NCBI RefSeq assembly: GCF_018889955.1
Contig: NZ_CP076545.1
Span: forward strand, 1,302,001-1,366,000
DNA: 64,000 nucleotides
Reading direction: 5' to 3'
Source: Collinsella sp. zg1085
GTDB lineage: Bacteria > Actinomycetota > Coriobacteriia > Coriobacteriales > Coriobacteriaceae
Part shown: piece by piece, positions 34,761 through 41,434 of the stretch
Position numbering within the stretch: position 1 is the first letter of the stretch
Layout of the letters: every line of letters starts with the position of its first letter
The notes under the pieces: model-generated
Databases searched by the model: none
What the model saw: the letters and a program-made list of their open reading frames with translations, nothing else
What the model was told of the DNA's origin: nothing
Position numbers and translations under genes: made by a program

Positions 34761-34789
34761 TTGGCGCGACGGACATATTTCGCTATACT
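34761..34789 (+). promoter_or_regulatory. Predicted tRNA-Val promoter
   Basis: TTGGCG (34761-34766) and TATACT (34784-34789) with a 17-base spacer, seven bases before the tRNA 5' end. Confidence 0.7.
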
Positions 34790-34796
34790 GCTCCGT

Positions 34797-34872
34797 GGGC
34801 GATTGGCGCAACGGTTAGCGCAGGTGCTTTACACGCACAAGGCTGGGGGTTCGAATCCCTCATCGCCCACCA
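34797..34872 (+). tRNA. tRNA-Val (anticodon UAC)
   Basis: 76 bases with CCA encoded. The acceptor GGGCGAT pairs with ATCGCCC; the anticodon arm is GTGC-TTTACAC-GCAC with anticodon TAC; the T arm holds GGTTCGAATCC. The gene has its own promoter and terminator. The bases from 34852 on are the first copy of a downstream tandem repeat. Confidence 0.95.
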
Positions 34873-34884
34873 TAGCTTTGCTTG

Positions 34885-34908
34885 AGGTTCCTACATGGAG
34901 CCTTTTTT
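34885..34908 (+). terminator. Intrinsic terminator of tRNA-Val
   Basis: AGGTTCC (34885-34891) pairs with GGAGCCT (34897-34903, one G-U pair) followed by TTTTTT. The same terminator recurs in each downstream repeat copy; in the last copy the partner is GGAACCT, restoring a full Watson-Crick stem. Confidence 0.9.
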
Positions 34909-34925
34909 GTTATGTGCTCTTATCA

Positions 34926-35047
34926 GGGGATTCGAACCCGCAAGGGCGCGAAGCTGAGAAACGTGCGTTTAGCACGTTGCCAGCGAAGCGCGCAAGCCAG
35001 CCAAAGGCTGGCGCAGCGAACGGGCGCGTATGCGCCCCCGAATCCCT
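34926..35047 (+). other. Multi-helix folded module of the repeat (copy 1)
   Basis: The module is closed by GGGGATTCG (34926-34934) pairing with CGAATCCCT (35039-35047). Inside are CCC-GCAA-GGG (GNRA loop, 34937-34946), and a long stem CGC-GAA-GCTG/CAGC-GAA-GCG with a symmetric GAA/GAA internal loop and an AACGTGC-GTTTA-GCACGTT tip (34947-34990). These are followed by GCCAGCC-AAA-GGCTGGC (34996-35012) and GGGCGC-GTAT-GCGCCC (35022-35037). The closing stem is an inverted copy of the tRNA T-arm sequence. Whether this works as RNA or as DNA hairpins is unknown. Confidence 0.75.
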
Positions 35048-35536
35048 CATCGCCCACCATAGCTTTGCTTGAGGTTCCTACATGGAGCCTTTTTTGTTAT
35101 GTGCTCTTATCAGGGGATTCGAACCCGCAAGGGCGCGAAGCTGAGAAACGTGCGTTTAGCACGTTGCCAGCGAAGCGCGCAAGCCAGCCAAAGGCTGGCG
35201 CAGCGAACGGGCGCGTATGCGCCCCCGAATCCCTCATCGCCCACCATAGCTTTGCTTGAGGTTCCTACATGGAGCCTTTTTTGTTATGTGCTCTTATCAG
35301 GGGATTCGAACCCGCAAGGGCGCGAAGCTGAGAAACGTGCGTTTAGCACGTTGCCAGCGAAGCGCGCAAGCCAGCCAAAGGCTGGCGCAGCGAACGGGCG
35401 CGCATGCGCCCCCGAATCCCTCATCGCCCACCATCGCTTTGCTTGAGGTTCCTACACGGAACCTTTTTTGTTATGTGCTCTTATCAGGGGATTTGAAGCC
35501 AGGAGGTTTGAAGCGACATCGCGCGTGGAATTTACC

Positions 35537-35860
35537 CTAAACCATCTGGATTACCAGCATATATGCAGCCGTGCCACCAAAAATAGCCAGCAGCATATTG
35601 CGTCGCCACAAAAACAAGCCCGAAACAATCGCTATTCCCAGCAGTTCGGGCATACCGTAATTTCCCGATGTAAATGATGTGTCCTTTAAGCAATATGCCA
35701 CCAATAAAGCAAAAATTGCACCAGGCAAGGCATTACCAAGATAACGCAGCGTAGGTGAAATATCTTTTGAGGGGGCAATGAGCATAAACGGAAGTGCGCG
35801 CGTAGATAGAGTCACCAAACCCGCGATACAAACAGTTATCAGCTGCTCAACCAGTGTCAT
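35537..35860 (-). CDS. azlD: Branched-chain amino-acid exporter small subunit AzlD
   Basis: 107 residues with three to four membrane helices and the TRALPFML motif of AzlD proteins. Its ATG overlaps the stop of azlC by four bases. Together AzlC and AzlD form a LIV-E type exporter of branched-chain amino acids. The gene is convergent with the tRNA-Val repeat array. Confidence 0.9.
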   Translation of the reverse strand: MTLVEQLITVCIAGLVTLSTRALPFMLIAPSKDISPTLRYLGNALPGAIFALLVAYCLKDTSFTSGNYGMPELLGIAIVSGLFLWRRNMLLAIFGGTAAYMLVIQMV

Positions 35861-36947: not shown

Positions 36948-37316
36948 GGGGGCGACTGGTTTCGACACGATAGTTCTGAGAGAGGAAGCAAGTCGTGGTC
37001 TCCTCACCACGTTAAACAGGGGTACCGTCAAATTGAATTGACAATAATTCTTCTTATGAGCCTCAACTGGCTCTCGCTGCCTAAGTTATAGCGTAGCGCG
37101 TTAAACCGGGGATTTCCCCGACTCCGGGGCAACGTCATCTTAGGGGAATGCGCCTTTGCACGTAATCGGTATGGCAAAGGCTAAGCTTGAACCGGTTAGG
37201 GTGCCTTGAGCGTGTTACTGCGCGCGAGACATCTAAATCTAAACCAGTAACTGAGCTTGGAGATGCCAATCAGGGAGCTGTCGTGGACCGGAGTTCGATT
37301 CTCCGCGCCTCCACCA
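36948..37316 (+). ncRNA. ssrA: tmRNA
   Basis: 369 bases. The 5' GGGGGCG pairs with CGCCTCC at the 3' end (one G-U), the D-like region reads GACTGGTTTCGAC, the T arm is GGAGTTCGATTCTCC and CCA is encoded. The tag frame runs from about 37040 to the TAA at 37082-37084 and reads DNNSSYEPQLALAA; the resume codon GAC is my best guess. The ALAA end is the degron read by ClpXP-type proteases. tmRNA rescues stalled ribosomes and is a common integration site for mobile elements. Confidence 0.95.
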
Positions 37317-37717: not shown

Positions 37718-37894
37718 ATGAACAAGAAAGACAAAAAGAAGACGTCAGGAAATGTCAGGCGAACAAAGCTGACGCTGTCTGTGACGACAGAGGATAAGAA
37801 GATTTTGAAAATCATTGCAGCCAAGAGGGAGAAATCCATCTCAGCGATGCTGCATGAGTGGGTTGAGGAAAATGCAGAGGAGGCTGAGGAATAA
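37718..37894 (+). CDS. Ribbon-helix-helix protein heading the restriction-modification operon
   Basis: 58 residues. A basic N-terminus (MNKKDKKKTSGNVRRTK) leads into LTLSVTTEDKKILKIIAAKR and EKSISAMLHEWVEENAEE, a strand plus two helices of CopG/Arc type. AGGAGA precedes the ATG. Its TAA shares one base with the ATG of the nuclease-methyltransferase gene (TAATG), so the two are translationally coupled. I infer that it controls the operon through the ACGT boxes upstream, taking the role that C proteins have in other restriction-modification systems. Confidence 0.75.
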   Translation: MNKKDKKKTSGNVRRTKLTLSVTTEDKKILKIIAAKREKSISAMLHEWVEENAEEAEE

Positions 37895-39822
37895 TGGCAA
37901 AGAAGGAAGTTAAGACTGACCTGTGGGTCGCAAAGCAGCTCGATGAGTGTGGTATCAAGTTCGATGCTCAGGGCAGCAACGCGAAGGAAATAAACGACGC
38001 TCTTAAGACGGCGTCAAAGCGAGGAACTGGTAAGGCAGGATATCCTGAGTACGTCGCTGTCATCGGCGATTTCGTCCTTGTTATCGAAGATAAGGCCGAT
38101 ATGGGCAAGCAGATTAAGCTAACCGATTCGGGCATCATCGACATGGACGTGAAGGCTGTGACCGACTATGCCGTGAACGGTGCGTATTTCTATGCAAAGC
38201 ACATCGCGCAGAACACTCCGTTCAAGAAGGTGTTTGCTGTCGGTGTTTCCGGTGACGCGAAGCGTCACAAGATTACGCCTCTTTATGTGGACGACCGCGA
38301 GGGCTACAAGCAGCTTGAGGACATCGAGACATTCGTCGGGTTCTCCCCTGACAATATTCAGGAATACTACACACGCTATGTACTGGAGGAGATGACGGAC
38401 GTTGAAAAGACGACCGAGCAGATTCTGAAGGATGCAGCTGAGCTGCATGAGTATCTGCGCACATATGGAACGCTGAGAGACCAAGACAAGCCGTTAGTTG
38501 TTGCTGGTATCCTGCTTGCGCTGGACGAAATCAAGTCTAGGGGGTTCTCGATTGAGAGTCTTACGGGTGACCAGCTCGCTGGGAACCGTGACGGCGACAA
38601 GCTGATGAACGCCATCAAGAACCGTCTGACGCGCTCGAACGTGGGTCCAGAAGCGAAGAAAGATAAGCTCTTGTCTGAGTTCGCAATCTTGCAGACGAGC
38701 TTCAGACTGAACGAGATAAACGATACGCTGGGCAAGACGCCGCTCAAGTTCTACACGGAGTTCCTGAACGAGCACGTGTTCAAGAACATCAAGTACCAGA
38801 AGACCAGCGAGGACTTCATCGGCCGATTCTATGGCGAGTTTATGAGTTATTCAGGCGGTGACGGCCAGACGCTAGGCATTATTCTGACACCTTGCCACAT
38901 CACTGACCTGATGTGTAAGCTTGTGGATATCCAGGCGGATGACGTCGTTCTGGACCCGACTTGTGGAACTGCGGGATTTCTGATTTCCGCCATGCACCGC
39001 ATGCTGTCCATGGCTGATAGCGAGAGCAAGCGCAGAAACATCAAGAAGAAGCAGCTGCATGGTTTCGAGCTTCAGAGCAACATGTTTGCGGTGGCTGCTG
39101 CGAACATGATTCTTCGCGAGGACGGCAACAGCAACCTTGAGTGCACGGACTTCCTCAAGAAGAACCCTGCACAGGTGCAGCTGAAGCAGGCGACGGTCGG
39201 TCTAATGAATCCACCTTATTCGCAGGGGTCGAAAGCTGACCCTGAGCAGTACGAGCTATCCTTCATCGAGCACATGCTAGACTCGCTGACCATCGGAGCA
39301 CGCGCCGCAGTGATTGTCCCGCAGTCCTCCATGACGGGCAAGAGCAAGGCAGAACAGGCTTTCAAAGAATCCATCATGAAAAAGCACACGCTCGAAGGCG
39401 TCATCACCTGCAACACCGATACATTCTACGGCGTGGGCACGAATCCGGTTATCGCTGTGTTCACAGCGTATGAACCGCACAACGAGGACAAAGTCTGTAA
39501 GTTCATCGACTTTCGCGATGACGGGTACGAGGTTCGAGCTCACGTCGGCTTGGTCGAGGGCGATTCTGCGAAGGACAAGGAGCAACATTTGCTGGATGTC
39601 TGGAGCGGAAGCGTTGAGGCTCCATCGAAGTTCTGCGTCGAGTCCACAGTGAAGGCCGACGACGAGTGGCTGCACTCGTTCTATTTCTTTAACGACGAAA
39701 TTCCGACGGATGCGGATTTCGAGAAGTCTATCGGCGATTACCTGACGTTCGAGTTCTCTATGGTGATGCAAAACCGCGAGTACCTGTTCATGGGAGGTGA
39801 CAAGGATGCAGAGTCTAAATGA
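37894..39822 (+). CDS. Fused nuclease and N6-adenine methyltransferase, BcgI subunit A-like
   Basis: 642 residues. Residues 51-67 contain P-E, twelve residues, then E-D-K inside hydrophobic strands: a PD-(D/E)xK nuclease site. After a helical linker, the methyltransferase has LTPCHITDLM, motif I DPTCGTAGFL (354-363) and motif IV NPPY (439-442) of gamma-class N6-adenine enzymes. This order and length match BcgI subunit A (about 637 residues, as I recall with a P-E-x12-E-x-K site), a Type IIB enzyme that cuts on both sides of its site. A plain HsdM would lack the nuclease part, and no hsdR gene is present. Followed by an overlapping specificity gene. Confidence 0.85.
   Translation: MAKKEVKTDLWVAKQLDECGIKFDAQGSNAKEINDALKTASKRGTGKAGYPEYVAVIGDFVLVIEDKADMGKQIKLTDSGIIDMDVKAVTDYAVNGAYFYAKHIAQNTPFKKVFAVGVSGDAKRHKITPLYVDDREGYKQLEDIETFVGFSPDNIQEYYTRYVLEEMTDVEKTTEQILKDAAELHEYLRTYGTLRDQDKPLVVAGILLALDEIKSRGFSIESLTGDQLAGNRDGDKLMNAIKNRLTRSNVGPEAKKDKLLSEFAILQTSFRLNEINDTLGKTPLKFYTEFLNEHVFKNIKYQKTSEDFIGRFYGEFMSYSGGDGQTLGIILTPCHITDLMCKLVDIQADDVVLDPTCGTAGFLISAMHRMLSMADSESKRRNIKKKQLHGFELQSNMFAVAAANMILREDGNSNLECTDFLKKNPAQVQLKQATVGLMNPPYSQGSKADPEQYELSFIEHMLDSLTIGARAAVIVPQSSMTGKSKAEQAFKESIMKKHTLEGVITCNTDTFYGVGTNPVIAVFTAYEPHNEDKVCKFIDFRDDGYEVRAHVGLVEGDSAKDKEQHLLDVWSGSVEAPSKFCVESTVKADDEWLHSFYFFNDEIPTDADFEKSIGDYLTFEFSMVMQNREYLFMGGDKDAESK
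38044..38094 (+). other. PE-x12-EDK nuclease motif
   Basis: Codes for residues 51-67 of the nuclease-methyltransferase: PE, YVAVIGDFVLVI, EDK. The spacing places an acidic residue on one strand and E-x-K on the next, as in restriction nucleases of the PD-(D/E)xK class. Confidence 0.75.
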
Positions 39823-40321
39823 GAGGGAATGGAGGCAGCTGTCGGCTTTTGGCAACGGTGCTCCGCTGCATATCGAAACAACCAGTAGTAGTATTGACGG
39901 CATTCGCCTGATAGATGATGGTGAGAAGTCGGTTCCATATATTACTCGCTCCGATGCCAATAATGGCTTGGCGCGTTTCGTAAGCGCAAAGAACTATGCG
40001 TTTGGCAGTGATGATGGCGGTTGCATAACTGTTGGTTTGGATACGCAGACGGCGTTTTATCAGCCGCATAAGTTTGTCACGGGACAAAACGTGCAGGTTA
40101 TTACGGACAAAAACTTGAACAAAGACGTGGCTCAGTTTGTAGTGCCTATTCTGCGTCAGCAGATGACGGCTAAATTTAATTGGGGCGGTAACGGTGCAAC
40201 ACTTGGACGTATGAGGCGGCTTTCCATCATGCTTCCTGTTGACGATGACGGCAATCCTGACTACGACTACATGACGCAGTACGCCTCCGAAATGAGGGGG
40301 GGGGTTGCTCATGCGGTATAA
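39806..40321 (+). CDS. Specificity subunit, target-recognition unit 1 (frame ends after G9 tract)
   Basis: 171 residues as sequenced. The ATG at 39806 follows GGGAGG and lies inside the end of the methyltransferase gene. The unit opens with LNEREWRQLS, contains a recognition-domain-like middle (SVPYITRSDANNGLARFVSA, GCITVG, TAFYQPHKFVTGQNVQVI) and closes with MLPVDDDGNPDYDYMTQYASEM. At the G9 run (40296-40304) the frame continues only nine codons to a TAA. With eight Gs it would read on as RGGLLMRYKHYVAGRLSELE into unit 2, giving a 367-residue protein, close to BcgI subunit B (about 341). So the present form is either an OFF state or a short product. Confidence 0.8.
   Translation: MQSLNEREWRQLSAFGNGAPLHIETTSSSIDGIRLIDDGEKSVPYITRSDANNGLARFVSAKNYAFGSDDGGCITVGLDTQTAFYQPHKFVTGQNVQVITDKNLNKDVAQFVVPILRQQMTAKFNWGGNGATLGRMRRLSIMLPVDDDGNPDYDYMTQYASEMRGGVAHAV
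40296..40304 (+). repeat. G9 homopolymer in the specificity gene
   Basis: Nine consecutive Gs after ATGA, at the junction of recognition units 1 and 2. Frame arithmetic: G9 stops at 40321, G8 (or G11) fuses units 1 and 2, G10 stops soon in the third frame. The run also resembles a ribosome site seven bases before the ATG of unit 2. Confidence 0.9.
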
Positions 40322-40910
40322 ACATTATGTCGCTGGGCGACTCTCCGAGTTGGAGTACAAAGACATCCCAGCACTGGACGAGAAGGAATGGGCGGAGTTT
40401 CGCATCGGAGATTTGTTCGAAGTAAGTCGTCCAACGGCACGAAACAAGGACAATTACCAAGCGGGCGGAGTCCCATTCGTTGCGTCGGGAAGCGTGAATA
40501 ATGGGGTTATGAAGCTCTGCGAACCGCTAGATGACGAGCCGTTGGATAAAGGCAGGTGCATCACGGTTAGCCCTGTTGATGGCAGCACATTCTATCAACC
40601 AATGGATTTTCTTGGCCGTGGAGGTGCTGGTTCGTCAATATTGATGCTGCGTAGCGATAACTTGAATTTATATCGTGGCCAACTCATGGCACGGGCTATT
40701 CAGCAAACATGTTCGAAATATACCTATGGGCACATGGGCAACAAAGACAGCATTAAGCGTGAACGAATCATGCTCCCCGTCAATGATGCGAGTAAGCCCG
40801 ATTATGCGTATATGGAGCAGTATGCAAAGAACATGATGTTTCGCAAGTATCGTGCATATCTCAATTTCATTGAGCGAGAAATTGACGATATCGAGAGAGA
40901 GAGAGAGTAA
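40311..40910 (+). CDS. Specificity subunit, target-recognition unit 2
   Basis: 199 residues from the ATG at 40311, with the G tract as a possible ribosome site. After a helix (MRYKHYVAGRLSELEYKDIP) it repeats the architecture of unit 1: LDEKEWAEFRIGDLFEVSRP, VPFVASGSVNNGVMKL, ITVSPVDGSTFYQP and the closing IMLPVNDASKPDYAYMEQYAKNMM with a long helix. The end is a (GA)7 tract translating as IERERE then TAA. Removing one GA would join unit 3. The initial helix is what one expects of the unit 1-unit 2 linker, so this was once one gene with unit 1. Confidence 0.8.
   Translation: MRYKHYVAGRLSELEYKDIPALDEKEWAEFRIGDLFEVSRPTARNKDNYQAGGVPFVASGSVNNGVMKLCEPLDDEPLDKGRCITVSPVDGSTFYQPMDFLGRGGAGSSILMLRSDNLNLYRGQLMARAIQQTCSKYTYGHMGNKDSIKRERIMLPVNDASKPDYAYMEQYAKNMMFRKYRAYLNFIEREIDDIERERE
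40893..40907 (+). repeat. (GA)7 dinucleotide tract in the specificity gene
   Basis: GAGAGAGAGAGAGAG precedes the stop of unit 2. In the present length the frame ends at 40910. Loss of one GA (or gain of two) joins unit 2 to unit 3; gain of one GA gives a stop at 40912-40914. Confidence 0.9.
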
Positions 40911-40912
40911 GT

Positions 40913-41434
40913 GAGCCGCTAGCAAAGCTGAGCGAGAAGGAATGGGCTGAGTTTTCGTTAGACGATGTTTTCACTGTTGGCGCGGGCAAGAGATTGGAGA
41001 CGCGTAACAAAATTCCCGGAACACGTCCGTTTATCGGTGCAACTGATAACGGAAATGGCGTGACGGGCTTTGTCGGGAATGATAATGCGTCAAAAGATAG
41101 CAACGTGTTAGGTGTAAACTATAATGGAGCGCCGTGTATTGCTTTTTATCATCCGTACGAATGTGTTTTTACGGACGATGTAAAACGGCTGCATTTACGG
41201 CATTACAGGGATAACGAGTTTGTTTTGCTGTTCTTCGTATCAGAATTTGCGCAGCAACGTTCAAAATATAGCTATGGCTATAAGTTCAAAGAACAGAGAA
41301 TGCTGAGACAAAAATTGATGCTTCCTGTCGCTGATTCGGGCGAGCCTGATTACGAATATATGGAGCAGTACAGTAAGAACATGATGCTTTGCAAGTATCA
41401 GCAGTATCTGGCGTTTCTGGAGCAGAGCGTTTGA
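40913..41434 (+). pseudogene. Specificity subunit, target-recognition unit 3 (no start codon of its own)
   Basis: The frame from 40913 reads EPLAKLSEKEWAEFSLDDVF, RPFIGATDNGNGVTGFVG, CIAFYHPYECVFTDDVKRL, KYSYGYKFKEQRMLRQKLML, PVADSGEPDYEYMEQY and ends KYQQYLAFLEQSV. It is a third copy of the same recognition unit (about 174 residues). The first possible start inside is a TTG at 40994 with no ribosome site, so it is expressed only if the (GA)7 tract changes length. Sequence quality is intact, with no internal stop, which argues for selection rather than decay. Fused with units 1 and 2 it would give about 541 residues. Confidence 0.75.

Follow-up and report, generated by a model that had tools for sequence, protein, structure and literature searches.

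In the NgoAV system of Neisseria gonorrhoeae, which belongs to Type I, hsdS1 and hsdS2 carry a poly-G tract at their hinge (PMC9577141, PMC6789123). The accessible text on NgoAV states that the loss of one G joins the units and alters the methylated motif, and that the truncated form is active; activity of the half-S is also given in PMC9577141. In the S subunit of the Type IIB enzyme BsaXI, the hinge lies halfway along CR1; the lone TRD1-CR1 works with a palindromic specificity and stays partly active after removal of 8-32 aa of CR1, and TRD2-CR2 alone is not expressed (PMC9159934). In JHP1422, the lone TRD3 is active and the lone TRD1 is inactive (PMC3936762), and the halves of EcoDXXI reassemble (PMC3874165). 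Half-size specificity subunits with activity, to which a first-pass annotation of the present locus had appealed, thus have precedent in NgoAV, JHP1422 and BsaXI.

The locus lies in a 64,000-nucleotide stretch of DNA (the window), which is part of a complete 1.72 Mb genome of the class Coriobacteriia; the host is a gut-type actinobacterium. The operon is ordered, 3' of the tmRNA gene, as a ribbon-helix-helix (RHH)-like ORF, the A gene and three recognition units (Table 1), which match PF01420 with E-values of 1.8e-10 (unit 1), 1.1e-11 (unit 2) and 7.4e-13 (unit 3). The start/stop overlaps at the RHH-like ORF/A and A/unit 1 junctions resemble the overlap of units 1 and 2. The RHH-like ORF displays weak Pfam matches, all to RHH-type families, and a predicted Shine-Dalgarno (SD) pairing of -7.3 kcal/mol; it is a possible regulator. 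At 34761-35540 of the window, near-identical tandem copies of ~187 bp are located downstream of a tRNA-Val gene, and appear in the list of ORFs as recurring open frames of 125 aa.

Table 1. Features of the operon and its 5' neighbour, in window coordinates
Feature	Coordinates	Strand	Remarks
tmRNA gene	36948-37316	+	directly 5' of the operon; ARAGORN
Small RHH-like ORF, 58 aa	37718-37894	+	stop overlaps the A gene start (TAATG)
A subunit, 642 aa, BcgIA-like	37894-39822	+	fused PD-(D/E)XK-type nuclease and N6-adenine methyltransferase
Unit 1, 171 aa in the G9 state	39806-40321	+	recognition domain 1 and first half of helix CR1
G9 tract, hinge 1-2	40296-40304	+	
Unit 2, 199 aa from ATG 40311	40311-40910	+	second half of CR1, recognition domain 2, CR2
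(GA)7 tract, hinge 2-3	40893-40906	+	
Unit 3	40907-41434	+	recognition domain 3 and CR; frame 2

The first-pass annotation had taken the operon for a Type I system, which is not borne out by the A protein. The match of the latter to PADLOC PDLC03602 covers residues 2-636 of 637 (E 1.7e-164); PF02384 is matched at 2e-30, and the nuclease-like PEY...EDK, the SAM motif DPTCGTAGF and NPPY are all retained. The A protein of Sau42I from phage phi-42, a system called BcgI-like in a title cited by PMC3077401, is 45% identical to that of the window and also matches PDLC03602. Features of the class that are present include the fusion of a nuclease and a gamma-type N6-adenine methyltransferase in one RM subunit of ~640 aa, and a separate S gene directly 3' of A with TRD-CR-TRD-CR modules (PF01420 in each unit; PDLC03591), the modules being mutually out of frame in the present sequence. 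Inspection of the ORFs between 34 and 46 kb revealed no separate HsdR translocase, i.e. no separate R subunit with helicase domains as in Type I, in the operon; the nuclease is within the A subunit. Owing to the PDLC03602 match, the likeness to Sau42I and the fused nuclease/SAM motifs, the system is assigned to BcgI-like Type IIB restriction-modification rather than Type I; cutting on both sides of a bipartite site and an (RM)2S complex, which also characterize this class, would be expected. As the nuclease is fused to the methyltransferase, a change of specificity would bring cleavage along with it. BcgIA-like genes of L019, L020 (7071-8373), L022, L024 and L050 are interrupted near the same codons 5' of DPTCGTAGF, with a 1.3 kb insert in L020 and L024 being a viral contig; these codons are possibly an integration site for mobile elements inside a restriction gene.

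The G9 tract lies at the junction of recognition units 1 and 2, as originally annotated, and is the sole G9 in the window as compared to a shuffle mean of 0.03 (100 shuffles). In the G9 frame, unit 1 (ATG 39806) reads ...YASEMRGGVAHAV up to its TAA at 40319-40321; counting from the tract-opening AGG, there are eight codons before this stop, which agrees with the nine codons annotated earlier if the stop is counted. The ATG at 40311 lies 7 nt from the last G (a 6-nt spacer), the distance also given by the first-pass annotation, and opens the 199-codon unit 2. The resemblance of the tract to a ribosome site is sustained by the predicted pairing with a generic 16S rRNA end, which amounts to -11.4 kcal/mol for unit 2 (the G tract with ATG 40311) as compared to -14.5 and -12.4 kcal/mol for unit 1 and the A gene, respectively, and we infer that unit 2 is translated from this ATG.

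By frame computation, a G8 or G11 tract yields one chain of 367/368 aa from units 1 and 2; G7 and G10 lead into the third frame with a nonsense tail, which for G10 adds ~35 aa to unit 1. At the hinge of L010 (Atopobium deltae) and L020, AGG GGG GG(T/C) ATG CTC ATG CGG TAT AAA is read in one frame as RGGMLMRYK. The window hinge read as G8 gives RGGLLMRYK, with a linker of 45 residues that is of the same length as in the relatives. At the sequence level, this shows the joined state to be G8 or G11, and the earlier logic of joined versus split frames is upheld. Since the hinge of the relatives is a single frame, one base separates the split gene from an ordinary two-unit S. The in-frame relatives keep the same Gs and the ATG, which argues that the putative ribosome site was not made for the split state, and a unit 2 product might be formed in both the joined and the split states. 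That the family as a whole conserves an internal start was considered and rejected, as the hinge methionine is missing in many relatives. A search of 396 genomes of the class for the G hinge, with the spacing left free, retrieved it from the window and A. deltae only and provides no length series, and a search of viral contigs for both hinge motifs with other tract lengths returned none.

The second tract, (GA)7, has an expectation of 0 in 100 shuffles and stops the unit 2 frame at once (...IERERE, then stop). Unit 3 is in another frame than unit 2, and displays no usable start codon before TTG 40994, which is inside the domain; there is no SD. Units 2 and 3 are placed in one frame by either (GA)6 or (GA)9 (...IERERVSEPLAKLSEKEW), the (GA)6 linker being 49 residues long vs 40-46 in relatives, a length that is long yet plausibly acceptable. 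The single-tract toggle proposed in the first-pass annotation is thus retained in part: the length of the G tract does set the frame, but it is one of two tracts, with unit 3 behind the other. A startless unit 3 behind (GA)7 therefore implies four product sets and not one toggle.

It is probable that the S gene is a phase-variable three-module array of the BcgI-like operon, run by G9 and (GA)7, and at both hinges the frame offset is of a size that slippage could correct. Slipped-strand length changes in the two tracts would select which units share one specificity chain, and the joined units would set the DNA sequence read by the enzyme; on this reading, tract lengths should vary in the population and the length states should differ in target sequence. 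The computed product of G8/(GA)7 is 367 aa (units 1-2), which would be S(1-2). That of G9/(GA)6 is 171 + 373 aa, the latter comprising units 2-3, so that G9, or G10, with (GA)6 would give unit 1 together with S(2-3) started at ATG 40311. G8/(GA)6 gives 541 aa (units 1-2-3) and would form S(1-2-3), while the present G9/(GA)7 gives 171 + 199 aa, which would be separate half-subunits of units 1 and 2 with unit 3 silent. A two-bit switch, in which G9 and (GA)7 choose among the three units and the G tract doubles as a ribosome site for unit 2 or units 2-3, is given an even chance. If it is true, S(1-2), S(2-3), S(1-2-3) and half-subunit states could follow one another within a cell line, a different motif belonging to each, and the fused nuclease would enforce every new motif. 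Three points stand against the phase-variable array: the sequence comes from a single assembly, in which the length of the G9 homopolymer may be wrong; an altered specificity should turn the nuclease-fused enzyme against the cell's own unmodified chromosome, for which no protection is identified; and CR1 is halved in the modelled split state.

Unit 1 displays 65% identity to the second units of L011 and L023, and units 2 and 3 display 77% identity to the second units of L020 and L013, respectively, so that all three are 65-77% identical to units of intact two-unit S genes. Units are found at either position, the counterpart of window unit 3 being first in L011 and second in L013. In the unit comparisons, synonymous sites are saturated and non-synonymous change is 0.15-0.27 per site, unit 3 included; such pairwise values also carry the selection acting on the partner lineage. 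This pattern suggests that all three units are conserved, and speaks against a long silence of unit 3, from which no product can arise at the present tract lengths.

Tracts of (GA)7 or longer occur in 3 of the 65 family genomes, at one place each and always at a specificity-gene hinge: the window, the same-genus genome G001 (locus L015), where (GA)13 is out of frame, and a Type I HsdS of G020, where (GA)11 is in frame. Order-wide (395 genomes), of the 16 (GA)7+ tracts that follow a C or T, 5 are located at hinges of S genes. Two of these, out of frame in G334 and in frame in G080, add to the three above and were assigned from the surrounding sequence; the chance of 5/16 is ~4e-7 if S genes make up 1% of the genome, a share that is assumed and deemed generous. 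In the same order, (GA)8-11 is located at the inter-unit hinge of Type I HsdS genes (L048, 8279-9460, minus strand; L074; L076), which represents an independent use of the same device. A G8 is present out of frame at the S hinge of G345, and G303 (L051, 6930-8618) has a three-unit BcgI-like S with G7 at the unit 2/3 hinge, also out of frame; in unit 1 of this S locus, the frame is broken at an A7 run. In G328 (L050, 6888-6896), a G9 lies at the A/S junction, where the BcgIA-like gene ends; the neighbouring S region is degraded. The tract lengths seen across relatives (broken G7, G8 and G9; GA7, GA11 and GA13) come from different species and not from one clone. BcgI-like S genes from outside the class (L011, L012, L017, L018, L045, L046, L047), as well as that of the viral contig L023, have no hinge tract, for which reason hinge tracts look like a lineage trait, on small numbers.

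The whole genome contains 14 runs of G9-G12 against ~0.8 expected from shuffles; a G9 as such is therefore ordinary in this genome, and the placement is the unusual part. Several of these runs are located at or just 5' of the starts of seemingly secreted or surface-type frames and of an ABC-transporter-like frame (e.g. L054, L058, L060, L062, L064). Their position near gene starts suggests that G-tract phase variation may be widespread in this organism.

The in-frame orthologous S of L020 was modelled with AlphaFold to represent the joined units (pLDDT 84, pTM 0.63). CR1 forms a single helix (145-172) in this model, and the tract codes for R156-G157-G158 in the middle of it, M161 being the unit 2 start. 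The closest solved structures are Type I S subunits, with the S of BsaXI (8w0p_C) at rank 10. In the model of lone unit 2 (pLDDT 76, with lower confidence in the recognition domain), the remainder of CR1 is a helix (2-12) and a long CR2 helix spans 165-198, including the GA-coded ERERE. The models suggest that in the split state, unit 1 would be left without about half of the dimerising helix CR1 and unit 2 would have the whole of CR2, for which reason unit 2 is the better candidate if one half works alone. By analogy with the half-subunits described earlier, the split state may be somewhat active, via homodimers of unit 2 or via units 1 and 2 paired non-covalently, at odds rather below even.

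The gene may also be a plain ON/OFF switch, in which only joined two-unit chains work and G9/(GA)7 is the OFF state with inert halves, an explanation whose probability falls not far short of one half. The half of CR1 retained by unit 1 in the model is in keeping with it, as are the lack of expression of TRD2-CR2 alone in BsaXI and the inactivity of TRD1 alone in JHP1422. However, BsaXI TRD1-CR1 with a shortened CR1 is partly active, and both the half-S of NgoAV and the lone TRD3 of JHP1422 are active. The predicted start site of unit 2 nearly matches those of its neighbours in strength, and its modelled CR2 helix is whole, which speaks against inert halves. Moreover, G9/(GA)6 would still give S(2-3), so that the tract pair would be no plain ON/OFF switch.

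Other explanations dispense with switching. Both hinges are out of frame in the single sequence at hand, and the S region of the relative G328 is degraded, as would be expected of a decaying pseudogene in which an array remnant has acquired two chance frameshifts in simple repeats; this is improbable, as each of the three units is an uninterrupted open frame in which non-synonymous change is low, the A gene is likewise undamaged and retains every catalytic motif, and the frame breaks only at two hinge repeats, with repeats at the same hinge in relatives. Homopolymers are error-prone and in-frame relatives exist, which would fit an assembly error at G9 that conceals a true G8, a fixed two-unit S(1-2) and a unit 3 left over as a cassette. 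Such an error leaves unexplained the (GA)7 break and the GA13, G8 and G7 hinge tracts of relatives; owing to the (GA) tract and the relatives it is disfavoured for the locus as a whole, and is considered as unlikely as decay. Long G runs can cause transcript slippage, and slippage of RNA polymerase or the ribosome on the G tract could yield joined and split products side by side in fixed proportions, with the DNA unchanged. This is rated slightly lower still, since the GA tract needs a 2-nt change and ribosomes that make the common -1 shift would enter the third frame instead of that of unit 2; -1 frameshifting at the G run was accordingly rejected as the joining step.

A phase-variable three-module array, if true, would provide a small combinatorial memory for DNA methylation from slippage alone, without a recombinase or a silent cassette, in Coriobacteriia. 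With cutting and marking done by one protein, it also poses the puzzle of how the cell would outlive a switch in specificity. As GA and G tracts recur at this hinge in both BcgI-like and Type I genes of the order, further cases may be sought by the rule of a repeat at the hinge that separates two units. A BcgI-like system with three units and two unlike tracts, as well as work on phase-variable methyltransferases of Collinsella, were not found in the open-access literature searched.

Among known systems, Sau42I and BcgI share with the window an A protein of the same length and family and have a two-unit S, but the phi-42 S gene is continuous and without tracts (L047). The H. pylori BcgI-like S genes likewise combine a fused RM gene with an S gene in which a poly-G of 13 or 14 causes a frameshift; the accessible text, in contrast, treats the one tract as ON/OFF, and mentions neither a third unit nor placement at a hinge. 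The three-TRD HsdS JHP1422 of H. pylori (PMC3936762) has three tandem units, two specificities and one unit active alone, but is a Type I subunit of one chain, with two of the three units identical and no inter-unit repeats reported. The Type IIG gene JHP1272/HP1353-HP1354 (PMC3936762) shares two homopolymer tracts in one specificity-bearing gene, the second of which alters the motif; it differs in being a single-chain MmeI-type enzyme, with the first tract acting as ON/OFF and the second changing the recognised sequence. NgoAV is the closest in mechanism, with poly-G between two recognition units, yet it is of Type I with a separate HsdR and has two units and one tract; in the accessible text, hsdS2 alone is said to be inactive and a start site at the hinge is not reported. 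Every ingredient of the present locus has precedent in NgoAV, the H. pylori BcgI-like S genes, JHP1422 and the engineered BsaXI halves.
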